Source: Streptomyces violaceoruber
GTDB lineage: Bacteria; Actinomycetota; Actinomycetes; Streptomycetales; Streptomycetaceae
Assembly: GCA_000720805.1 (NCBI GenBank)
Contig: JODI01000063.1
Coordinates: 1 to 57,518 of the forward strand
Reading direction: 5' to 3'
DNA: 57,518 nucleotides
The translations under genes were made by a program, and so were the position numbers. A model generated the notes under the pieces. It was given only the letters and a program-made list of their open reading frames with translations. It was not told where the DNA came from and made no database searches. Below, in pieces: positions 33,219 to 49,279 of the stretch; the first letter of the stretch is position 1, and every line of letters begins with the position of its first letter.

Positions 33219-33258
33219 CCCGGGAATTCATATCCAGGGGATGATTTCTTCCCCCCAT
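33219..33258 (+). promoter_or_regulatory. Operator site A, upstream of the hydrolase operon
   Basis: CCCGGGA (33219), 8-bp spacer, then CCAGGGGATGATTTCTTCCC CCCAT to 33258. It matches site C (40921-40961) almost base for base, including the 8-bp spacer, and shares the AGGGGA...TCCCCCC core with sites B, D, E, F and G. It ends 86 bp before the ATG of the alpha/beta hydrolase. It is likely bound by an XRE/MmyB-like regulator encoded further along. Confidence 0.6.
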
Positions 33259-33344
33259 CGTGAGTGGACATCATCTCCACACCGGAGAATCATGGTGTGC
33301 GGACCGCCGATTGGCGGACCGCGGCCGACAAAGGGACAGGCGCC

Positions 33345-34259
33345 ATGGTCGAGACTGTTTCATTCAGGAACAAGGCCGTAGAGATAGCGGGACACCTCCA
33401 CCTGCCGGACAATTTCGAAGAAGATAAAAAATACCCGGCCCTTGTCGGAATTCATCCGGCCGGCGGTGTGAAGGAACAGACCATCGGCCAGTACGCGAAG
33501 CGGCTGGCTTCCGAGGGATTCGTCACCGTGGTCTACGACTCCTCCTACCAGGGAGAGAGCGGCGGCGAACCGCGCCTTCTGGAAGACCCGACGACAAGAG
33601 TGGAGGACGCCCGCTGCGCGGCGGACTTCCTCACCGCTCTCCCGTACGTGGACACCGAGCGGATGGGCGTCTTCGGCATCTGCGCCGGTGGCGGTTACGC
33701 GATCAGCGTGGCGCAGACCGAACGCCGTTTCAAGGCGGTCGCCACCGTCAGCGCGGCTCCGATGGGCGAAGGTTCCAGGGGCTTCCTGGGGCATCTGTCT
33801 CCGGTGTCCGAGCAGATCAAGGCCCTGGAGATGGTCGCTCAACAGCGCACAGCGGAGGCGAGGGGAGCAGAGCCCGTCTACGCCCCGTTCGTCCCGGAAA
33901 CGCTGGAGGAGATCGACGACAACACGCCGGACCTCCTCCGCGAGGGATACGACTACTACCGAACCCCGCGTGGTCAGCATCCTCGTTCTAAGGGCCGTTT
34001 TCTGCTGACCAGCATGGACAAGATGTACGCGTTCTCGGCGTTCGATCAAATTCCGGAACTGCTGACCCAGCCGCTGCTCCTCATCGCGGGGAGCAAGGCC
34101 GACACAAAGGTTTTCAGCGACCAGGCTTACGAGCTTTCCAAGGGCCCGAAGGAATTGTTCGTCGTCGACGGCGCGACTCACATCGCCATGTACGACGTTC
34201 CCGAGTACATGGATCAGGCGCTCACCAAGATGGTGAAGTTCTTCGCCGTCCTTCAGTAG
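33345..34259 (+). CDS. Alpha/beta hydrolase (YcjY/dienelactone hydrolase-like)
   Basis: 304 residues from the ATG at 33345, preceded by AAGGGACAGG; upstream in-frame ATGs lack a site. Seen: YPALVGIHPAGGVKEQTIGQ, LASEGFVTVVYDSSYQGESG, VDTERMGVFGICAGGGYAIS and late strand LLIAGSKADTKVFSDQAYEL with His in GATHIAMYD. The nucleophile elbow reads GICAGG, with Cys where Ser is usual, as in dienelactone hydrolases. It is the first gene of a four-gene rightward operon with flavodoxin, SnoaL and DJ-1 genes, headed by operator site A. Confidence 0.82.
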   Translation: MVETVSFRNKAVEIAGHLHLPDNFEEDKKYPALVGIHPAGGVKEQTIGQYAKRLASEGFVTVVYDSSYQGESGGEPRLLEDPTTRVEDARCAADFLTALPYVDTERMGVFGICAGGGYAISVAQTERRFKAVATVSAAPMGEGSRGFLGHLSPVSEQIKALEMVAQQRTAEARGAEPVYAPFVPETLEEIDDNTPDLLREGYDYYRTPRGQHPRSKGRFLLTSMDKMYAFSAFDQIPELLTQPLLLIAGSKADTKVFSDQAYELSKGPKELFVVDGATHIAMYDVPEYMDQALTKMVKFFAVLQ

Positions 34260-34327
34260 CAGGCCCCCAGGGCAAACGCCCGGAGAGCCGAACCCGCCGT
34301 AGAAATCATTCGAGGAGCACGTTCACC

Positions 34328-34927
34328 ATGTCCCATCCCGGCCGCCCCACCGTCGCCATCGCCTTTCATTCGGGCTACGGCCACACGGCCGTCATCGCCG
34401 AAGCCGTGGCGCGTGGTGCGGCGGGAGCGGGCGTCGAGGTCGTCTCGATCTCCGTCGACACCGTCACAGACGAGCAGTGGGCACAGCTGGACGCCGCTGA
34501 CGCGATCGTCTTCGGCGCCCCCACCTACATGGGTACCGCCTCCGCGGCCTTCCACGCGTTCGCCGAGGCCAGCAGCAAGCGCTGGTTCTCCCAGGCCTGG
34601 GTGGACAAGCTCGCCGCGGGTTTCACCAACTCCGGTGCCAAGAACGGCGACAAGTCGTCCACCCTGGGCTACTTCGCCACGATGGCCGCCCAGCACGGCA
34701 TGCACTGGATCAGCCTGGGTCTGCAGCCGGGCTGGGACTCCACCACGGGCAGCGAGGACGACATCAACCGGTTGGGCTTTTTCCTGGGCGCCGGCGCCCA
34801 GAGCCCGACCGACGCCGGCCCGGAGGCGGTCCACAAGTCGGACATCGCCACCGCGGAGCACCTGGGCGCCCGCGTCGCACGTCAGGCCACGATCTTCCGC
34901 GCCGGGCGGACCGCCCTCGCCGCCTGA
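34328..34927 (+). CDS. Flavodoxin family NAD(P)H:quinone oxidoreductase (WrbA-like)
   Basis: 199 residues. The FMN phosphate loop is IAFHSGYGHTAVIAEAVARG. The isoalloxazine loops are VFGAPTYMGTASAAFHAF and FTNSGAKNGDKSSTLGYFAT, followed by HGMHWISLGLQPGWDSTTG. These loops are those of WrbA-type flavoproteins, which reduce quinones by two electrons and avoid semiquinones. An AGGAGCACG precedes the ATG. It lies 68 bp after the hydrolase gene and 58 bp before the SnoaL gene in one operon. Confidence 0.87.
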   Translation: MSHPGRPTVAIAFHSGYGHTAVIAEAVARGAAGAGVEVVSISVDTVTDEQWAQLDAADAIVFGAPTYMGTASAAFHAFAEASSKRWFSQAWVDKLAAGFTNSGAKNGDKSSTLGYFATMAAQHGMHWISLGLQPGWDSTTGSEDDINRLGFFLGAGAQSPTDAGPEAVHKSDIATAEHLGARVARQATIFRAGRTALAA

Positions 34928-47948: not shown

Positions 47949-47994
47949 CGGTGATTCTCCGTTGGTACCGGTAGTACGTCGCCGACGGTCCGGG

Positions 47995-49038
47995 TCAGGC
48001 CAGCGTCGCGATGTCGATCACGAAGCGGTAGCGCACATCGGAGGACAGGACGCGCTCGTACGCCTCGTTCGTCTTCTCCACCGGGATGACCTCGACCTCC
48101 GCGCCGATCCCGTGCTCTCCGCAGAAGTCCAGCATTTCCTGCGTCTCCCGGATGCCGCCGATGGACGAACCGGCGTAAGAGCGGCCTCGGGAGAGAAGGG
48201 AGAACACGTTGAGCGACAGCGGTTCCGCCGGGGCGCCCACGTTGACCATGGTGCCGCCCACGGCCAGCAGGGAGAGGTAGGCGTCGACGTCGAGTTTGGC
48301 GCTGACAGTGTTGACGATGAGGTCGAAGGAACCTGCCAGTTCCTCGAACGTGGTCGGGTCACCGGTGGCGTGGTAGTGGTCGGCGCCCAGGCGCAGACCG
48401 TCGTCCATCTTCTTCAACGACTGGGAGAGGACCGAGACTTCCGCACCCATCGCGTGCGCGAACTTGACGCCCATGTGTCCGAGTCCGCCCAGCCCGACGA
48501 TGGCCACCTTCTTGCCGGGACCGGCGCCCCAGCGGTGCAGTGGCGAGTAGGTCGTGATGCCCGCGCACAGCAGCGGAGCGGCCTCGTCCAGGGCGATGCC
48601 TGCGGGGACGCGGACGACGAAGTGTTCGTCGACGACGATGTGGGTGGTGTATCCGCCCTGGGTCCGAGTCCCGTCCCGGTCGAGGGAGCCGTACGTGAGC
48701 GTGGTGCCGTTGAGACAGTACTGCTCCTCACCCTTGCGGCATGAGTCGCAGGTGCGGCAGGAGTCGACCATGCAGCCGACGCCGACGCGGTCACCCGCGG
48801 CGTACTTGCTGACCTCGGAACCGACTCGGGTGACGACTCCGGTGATCTCGTGTCCGGGGGCCACCGGGTAGTGCACCGGGCCCCAGTCTCCACGAACGTG
48901 GTGGATGTCCGAGTGGCAGATGCCGACGTACTTGATCTCGATGAGGACATCGTGCGGGCCGACTTCGCGGCGCTCGACGGAGGTCCGGGTAAGCGGTTCG
49001 GTCGCGGACGTAGCGGCGTACGCGTTGACGGTGAACAC
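47995..49038 (-). CDS. NAD(P)-dependent zinc alcohol dehydrogenase (YahK/AdhC-type)
   Basis: 347 residues from the GTG at 49038 with GGGAGAAAC before it; the longer frame to 49110 lacks a site. Catalytic zinc: [15 protein letters not shown] and GHEITG. Structural zinc: [15 protein letters not shown]. Cofactor domain: [20 protein letters not shown]. Then [20 protein letters not shown] and [16 protein letters not shown]. This class reduces aldehydes with NADPH (cinnamyl alcohol dehydrogenase-like). First gene of the leftward operon; the divergent gap to the AKR at 49382 holds operator site F. Confidence 0.9.
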
Positions 49039-49240
49039 GTTTCTCCCAATCTCCCAGGAGTGGATCTGGTCGCTGGCGCGGCATGTCGGTGCGGCATCCC
49101 TTACCTTCACGGACCATTCACGCGGGGCTCCACTTCTTCACTGACGCCATGAATTCGGCGTTCATGATTCATGGGCCCGCGAGAGAACAGGCCGCTGCAT
49201 GCCGCGCATTAGACGCTTGCACAATCACCCAACGTTGTGC

Positions 49241-49279
49241 AGGGGGAGGCATTTACCCGGGGAAGATTCCTTACCCCCT
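49241..49279 (+). promoter_or_regulatory. Operator site F in the divergent ADH/AKR promoter
   Basis: AGGGGGA (49241), 8-bp spacer, then CCCGGGGAAGATTCCTTACC CCCT to 49279. It keeps the three-block order and spacing of sites A, C and E. It ends 102 bp before the AKR ATG at 49382 and 203 bp from the alcohol dehydrogenase GTG, so it could control both directions. Confidence 0.55.

Follow-up and report, generated by a model that had tools for sequence, protein, structure and literature searches.

The window analysed here is the whole of contig JODI01000063.1 of Streptomyces violaceoruber (57,518 nt). It carries an island that encodes an alpha/beta hydrolase, flavodoxin-like, SnoaL-like and DJ-1/PfpI proteins, a quinone oxidoreductase-type (QOR) protein, a major facilitator superfamily (MFS) transporter and an aldo/keto reductase (AKR), interspersed with the genes for three XRE-type regulators, here called D, E and G (Table 1). 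Further Pfam assignments add a short-chain dehydrogenase/reductase (SDR) and bring the MFS proteins in the window to two and the AKRs to three. Seven related sites, A to G, lie ahead of the hydrolase, QOR, MFS, AKR and regulator genes. With a probability of about 0.85, we interpret them as an operator through which one clade of the MLTR regulator family would control both its own genes and electrophile-detoxification genes. The detoxification role is suggested by the Pfam families of the target genes.

Scanning the 57.5-kb window with GGGA-N8-T[AC]CCC returned 10 rows that fall at exactly these seven places and nowhere else, as sites A, B and C match on both strands. The chance level is a mean of 1.5 and a maximum of 6 matches in 100 dinucleotide shuffles, and all seven positions reported in a preliminary description of this DNA were thereby located. 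A tighter pattern gave seven rows at six of the seven places, missing site B, against 0.01 expected; it was modelled partly on the window sites and a promoter logo, so this expectation is optimistic and its counts are no held-out tests. Two matches to a looser pattern (3730-3751 and 23151-23173) are situated within long, mechanically called open reading frames (ORFs) and were judged to be chance.

The operator unit is a 16-bp near-palindrome with 10-14 of its 16 bases self-complementary across sites A-G. A second half-site of the GGGR type occurs about 16 bp (15-18) upstream of the core at sites A, C, E and F, with an exact offset blurred by runs of G, and is absent about 16 bp upstream at sites B, D and G. 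The preliminary description had read the layout as GGGRA, spacer, CCAGGGGA, spacer and TCCCCC. These elements are real, but they are better described as one palindrome plus, at the four sites named, the left arm of a second copy. Sites A and C, called almost identical, are indeed alike, but differ at three positions over the 23-bp CCAGGGGA...CCCCCC stretch (hand count) and at more upstream. The sites consistently point toward the gene named for each, although orientation is definable by the flanks alone because the core is near-palindromic. The three regulator genes start 36-37 bp past the end of the core, and the hydrolase, QOR, MFS and AKR genes 91-106 bp past it, in agreement with earlier figures of 31-34 and 86-104 bp that used wider site boundaries. 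The GGGA of sites D, E and G lies 52-53 bp ahead of each regulator's start codon.

The three regulators belong to the MmyB-like/MLTR family (PF17765), scoring 198-201 bits for MLTR_LBD (cut-off 26.3) and 35-51 bits for the helix-turn-helix (HTH) domain HTH_31 (cut-off 27). Regulator D shares 54-70% identity with G, E and three paralogues from its own genome. A profile of the clade matched two solved chains, MltR (Caur_2278, PDB 3pxp, E 5.1e-8) and DdrOC (6rnz, E 5.1e-4, HTH only). MltR is the only one matched over both domains (positions 42-236), although with weak sequence similarity. The family is large, with more than 1000 members according to the accessible text of PMC3406030. The same text describes oxidoreductase neighbours (SDRs and medium-chain dehydrogenases/reductases) for the MmyB-family genes of S. 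coelicolor, 15 of 16 of which are divergent from their putative target. Here, by contrast, G is co-directional behind the DJ-1 gene, and D follows E in tandem on the same strand. Divergence is a family habit and not a defining trait.

The site follows the clade in the regulators' own genome, where 38 MLTR_LBD matches were found, some of them fragments, and 30 have loci. In the clade to which D, E and G belong, the site lies near -53. Between -75 and -20, a strict site occurs in 5/8 clade members and in 0/20 more distant MLTR members (below 350 bits), with a shuffled mean of 0.3 in either case. Across the 10.5-Mb genome, the tight pattern gave 17 rows at 14 unique places: six in the window, four on contig C98, two on C27, one on C145 and one on C19 (reversed control 3). 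C27, C98 and C145 bear clade members or a clade remnant, so that 13 of the 14 places lie in the window or on these contigs, which answers the concern that the motif might occur at background frequency elsewhere. The C145 match (L068:6100-6410, genome G000) precedes the broken remnant of an E-type regulator gene that has kept both operator and -10 element. The C19 match sits at a tRNA cluster and was taken as chance.

With a profile built from six of the genome's own proteins and a threshold of E <= 1e-80, clade members turned up in 257 of 295 genomes of the genus. A set of 100 stretches was retrieved around part of these matches; once promoters sharing 75% or more identity over 100 bp had been removed, 76 remained, seven of them from the own genome. 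Strict sites number 34 in this set, 31 of them at 51-53 bp before the start codon and three at 85-95 bp; the reversed-string control gave a single match. The expected enrichment beside MmyB-like genes in related genomes is therefore borne out, and with it the proposed tie between a common operator and these regulators. When members from other genomes were grouped by falling similarity, the strict site was present at -75 to -20 in 34/54, 21/31, 14/30 and 8/16 promoters, redundant ones included, against shuffled means of 3.6, 1.9, 0.6 and 0.3. Across the 38 promoters with a site, further half-sites are most frequent 15-17 and 31 bp upstream of it.

A second collection, which overlaps the first and is not fully independent of it, comprises 285 stretches coding for a relative; of these, the best 80 were retained (76 loci) and gave 74 usable promoters (no start codon was found for L251 and L282), 51 of them non-redundant. 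Among these 51, drawn from the best 80 of the 285 stretches, 29 have a strict site at 51-55 bp (reversed control 0) and 40 have the -10 element described below at 15-16 bp. The same best 80 include 12 loci from outside Streptomyces; a strict site occupies the 51-55 bp position in four of them, from Rothia santali, Nocardia pseudovaccinii, Actinoplanes sp. and Amycolatopsis deserti. The shared operator with fixed geometry thus stands, but it is not confined to the island: the arrangement turns up throughout the genus and in certain other genera as well.

The regulator promoters have a fixed architecture. A TGnnAnnnT -10 element (TGNNANNNT) is present in 57 of the 76 non-redundant clade promoters, 15-16 bp ahead of the start codon; this position suggests that the transcripts are leaderless. 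Among 122 non-redundant sites, TGNNANNNT begins at exactly +37 from GGGA in 13/19 regulator, 3/18 target and 16/85 other sites, whereas other single offsets occur at most three times each. Information at the anchored GGGA and CC of the promoter logo is inflated, as 49 of the 76 promoters were selected on them, and unanchored counts were used. Sites D, E and G fit the spacing, with TG at +37, A at +41 and T at +45; sites A, B and C do not. Transcription starts about 7 bp after a -10 element. On that basis the operator centre in the regulator promoters would lie near -44, adjoining the -35 position, which suits a class II activator or a repressor. At site F, inspection by eye found TACGGT at +39 to +44 on the plus strand. 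On its minus strand (window 49206-49258), the upstream copy of site F is followed by TGCAAGCGT at +37 toward the alcohol dehydrogenase (ADH) gene, a single case seen by eye. Site F may be bidirectional.

Table 1. Operator sites, predicted promoter elements and genes of the island (positions in the window)
Feature	Position	Strand	Basis
Second half-site copy, ~16 bp upstream of site A	33222..33237	+	
Site A core (GGGA-N8-TCCC), before hydrolase gene	33238..33253	+	pattern scan; in 8/8 homologous promoters
Alpha/beta hydrolase (dienelactone-hydrolase-like)	33345..34259	+	Pfam
Flavodoxin/NADPH-FMN-reductase-like protein	34328..34927	+	Pfam
SnoaL-like protein	34986..35378	+	Pfam
DJ-1/PfpI protein	35403..36101	+	Pfam
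Site G core, before regulator G; GGGA 53 bp ahead of ATG	36215..36230	+	pattern scan
Predicted extended -10 (TGNNANNNT) of regulator G	36252..36260	+	spacing rule
Regulator G (HTH_31 + MLTR_LBD)	36268..37137	+	Pfam
Site B core, before quinone reductase	37195..37210	+	pattern scan; in 7/8 close homologues
QOR-type protein (ADH_N + ADH_zinc_N_2)	37317..38249	+	Pfam
Second half-site copy, ~16 bp upstream of site C	40924..40939	+	
Site C core, before MFS gene	40940..40955	+	pattern scan
MFS transporter	41059..43074	+	Pfam
Regulator D (HTH_31 + MLTR_LBD)	43308..44177	-	Pfam
Predicted extended -10 of regulator D	44185..44193	-	
Site D core, before regulator D	44215..44230	-	pattern scan
Regulator E (HTH_31 + MLTR_LBD)	44276..45154	-	Pfam
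Predicted extended -10 of regulator E	45161..45169	-	
Site E core, before regulator E	45191..45206	-	pattern scan
Second half-site copy, ~17 bp upstream of site E	45208..45223	-	
Zinc ADH, divergent from site F; possible second target of F	47995..49038	-	Pfam; minus-strand promoter geometry by eye
Second half-site copy, ~16 bp upstream of site F	49244..49259	+	
Site F core, between ADH and AKR genes	49260..49275	+	pattern scan
AKR	49382..50368	+	Pfam

The operator also recurs ahead of homologues of the target genes, taken as those scoring 200 bits or more at 60% identity or higher. The tight pattern gave 143 matches with unique context in the 1.29 Mb of loci fetched, against 0 in reversed sequence (palindromes on both strands count twice, and 40 could not be tied to any known gene); with a different pattern the figures were 138 and 12. 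All eight hydrolase promoters, the window included, have the site with differing spacers; the site is also present in 7/8 close QOR homologues. Flavodoxin promoters carry a strict site in 6/20 cases, and nine more show a degenerate right arm, GGGA-N8-TCCT, by eye. Where the flavodoxin gene lies at least 92 bp (92-497) behind the hydrolase gene it has its own site in 5/5 loci, and the hydrolase also has one in four of these five; at 36-68 bp it has none (0/3: the window, L181 and L182). SnoaL genes have a site in only 2/15 cases, both among the five not directly behind flavodoxin. This gap pattern suggests that the operator marks separate transcription units. The simpler rule that it tracks only the first gene of an operon was narrowed to gap length, because in four loci the flavodoxin gene carries a site in addition to the one of the hydrolase gene ahead of it. 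The same operator with a conserved footprint is found at the regulators and linked targets, weakly for site C and not for site F.

Further candidate targets lie outside the island. Read on the other strand, the C27:96406 match is followed by TGNNANNNT at +37 and, downstream, by an ORF that Pfam assigns to an aldehyde-oxidase-like [2Fe-2S] protein. An aldehyde-oxidase-like [2Fe-2S] subunit gene with operator and canonical -10 spacing was observed in L069:1603-2253, L112, L130, L132, L120, L196 and L189. All seven loci have the ORF downstream and TGNNANNNT at exactly +37; they were picked for carrying the match, with Pfam run on one and six further chosen because the same match is present. A Pfam scan of the supposed target ORF in L140 gave no match. 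A second MFS gene, encoding a GTTEF stretch, is preceded by GGGA-N8-TCCCC in L102, L104, L105, L106, L121, L108, L109, L194 and L195, and is a candidate further target in several genomes (Pfam on one).

Several results weigh against our interpretation. Among the regulators, a strict site is missing at 51-53 bp in 45/76 non-redundant clade promoters, and the sites of 24/110 non-redundant regulators fail a relaxed score of 6/8. In the own genome, one clade member on C98 (L011) has AGGA in place of GGGA, two others (C17 and C98:9324) have no site, and a loose form of the motif occurs in 6/20 distant MLTR promoters (shuffled mean 1.6, maximum 4). Outside Streptomyces, 8/12 loci among the best 80 of 285 stretches are without a strict site at 51-55 bp, and Amycolatopsis deserti has the site but no -10 at 15-16 bp. 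Among the targets, the -10 at +36 to +38 is missing in 15/18 sites, those of the hydrolase and QOR included. The site is found in 0/4 distant QOR homologues (63-71% identity), and to these adds the scarcity at SnoaL genes. Site C recurs at the same distance in just one homologue, a 97% identical protein with a near-identical promoter; a similar same-strand site accompanies the third homologue, in L133, but falls outside the 160 bp ahead of the chosen start. Site F, claimed as part of an island-wide code, is present in the window but not upstream of seven other AKR homologues. The pattern CCAGGGRA...CCCCC proved unspecific across the genus, matching in 64/101 genomes with a similar reversed control in many (untotalled); it was too loose for a genus-wide scan, and the palindrome was used instead.

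Operator and protein sequences were also compared for the 86 of 110 non-redundant regulators with a site score of at least 6/8. Spacer distance correlates with distance of the DNA-binding domain given the ligand domain (partial rank correlation 0.19, 0/500 permutations) and not with that of the ligand domain given the DNA-binding domain (0.02, 169/500). A control 40-bp stretch, however, gave 0.17 and 0.11 for the two domains, a further point of the same adverse kind. The apparent co-variation of the operator spacer with the DNA-binding domain is suggestive only, because the control shows that relatedness is not fully removed. Pairing of individual regulators with sites by operator sequence was abandoned, as the paralogues' sites looked too alike by eye.

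GGGAA-like -35 elements exist for some Streptomyces extracytoplasmic function (ECF) sigma factors. With their fixed orientation and position upstream of genes, the sites could be read as an ECF-type promoter in which GGGRA is the -35 and the rest is spacer. This is very improbable: both arms of the near-palindrome are kept, the regulator promoters have a separate extended -10 at a fixed +37, and the element is bound to one regulator clade. GGGGA...TCCCC could pair in RNA and form an attenuator or terminator hairpin in a leader transcript. The chance of this is negligible in our view, as the site of the regulator genes lies upstream of the predicted start and so would not be transcribed from that promoter. 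The association of clade and site is correlative and could also reflect another regulator that governs the whole set, MLTR genes included. We consider this unlikely, as the site keeps to the MLTR clade, 51-55 bp ahead of its genes' own start codons, in four non-Streptomyces loci too, and the clade-gene remnant on C145 retains it. The site is very probably the binding site of the clade's own regulators, because in other actinobacteria, too, many of their relatives are preceded by it at this spacing.

We propose that a regulator dimer would bind the 16-bp near-palindrome GGGA-N8-T[AC]CC, placed at the regulator genes 52-53 bp before the start codon and beside the -35 position. The extended -10 would put the transcription start on the start codon or right next to it, and each regulator would thus control its own leaderless gene. 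The same operator ahead of the hydrolase (heading hydrolase-flavodoxin-SnoaL-DJ-1), quinone reductase, MFS and AKR genes could let a small molecule, sensed by the PAS-like domain, switch the whole set together. At sites A, C, E and F, the second copy about 16 bp upstream could seat two dimers side by side. Lambda CI at PRM is an XRE-fold class II autoactivator whose HTH dimers occupy adjacent operators, the nearest overlapping the -35 of its own promoter; operator spacing here is about 16 bp, and the regulators may be activators or repressors.

The operator may be correct and the regulators may repress, with binding near -35 blocking RNA polymerase until a ligand releases it. We hold this to be a serious prospect, only somewhat short of even. 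The operator abuts the -35 position and, above all, the hydrolase and QOR promoters lack a -10 at +37. They may instead have a -10-like sequence nearer the site (by eye), in which case the operator would fall within the core promoter. Activation is slightly favoured by analogy, because MmyB acts as an activator and DNA binding in the liganded state was proposed for MltR (accessible text of PMC3406030). The fixed site-to--10 spacing of the regulator promoters, near -44, is moreover what a class II activator would need.

MmyB, the methylenomycin activator of S. coelicolor SCP1, shares with D, E and G an XRE HTH and an MLTR-type ligand domain, but serves an antibiotic cluster and is activated by furan autoregulators. 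It was suggested to recognise pseudo-palindromic 'B-boxes', and the dimer model of MltR binds a two-fold symmetric target (both in the accessible text of PMC3406030). A near-palindrome upstream of the clade genes would be consistent with this family trait, a likeness to the B-boxes by description and not by sequence. No B-box sequence was found in the accessible open literature on the family, and the accessible text of PMC3406030 yielded neither a DNA target sequence for MltR nor an operator sequence for the S. coelicolor MmyB-family genes. More widely, no operator sequence for any MmyB/MLTR family member was found in the accessible open literature (PMC3406030, PMC12565409, PMC7532634 and PMC10717218 among it), subscription papers being mostly outside this scope. 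As a kind, palindromic, autoregulated XRE operators are known; neither the operator of this clade nor its tandem form or leaderless geometry was met in the same literature.

With an operator defined by sequence and fixed spacing, it would become possible, for one clade, to predict targets and to screen for ligands with reporters. Should the families of the target genes be a true guide to their function, a response to reactive quinones and aldehydes in Streptomyces would come under the MLTR family. A wider scheme is tentative, and we lean against it: one operator alphabet would be common to several paralogous MLTR regulators per cell and spread across actinobacterial genera, with dimers stacked on ~16-bp tandem arrays upstream of leaderless promoters. 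The operator would reappear at the heads of transcription units in rearranged operons (flavodoxin, SnoaL, aldehyde oxidase), and the islands would be joined in one cross-talking electrophile-response network instead of acting as separate local regulons.

A DDE transposase gene (32241-33116) lies immediately upstream of the island. The island's regulators have no close match in G177, a genome marked as the same species. They appear to be accessory, because profile matches in G177 (four, best 3.7e-132) are fewer and weaker than those in the own genome (eight, best 4.9e-161). Upstream of the distant MLTR regulators in L223, L225, L227 and L235, a different palindrome (CCTGGG/CCTAGG...CCCAGG-like) is visible by eye, and each MLTR clade may therefore have its own operator.

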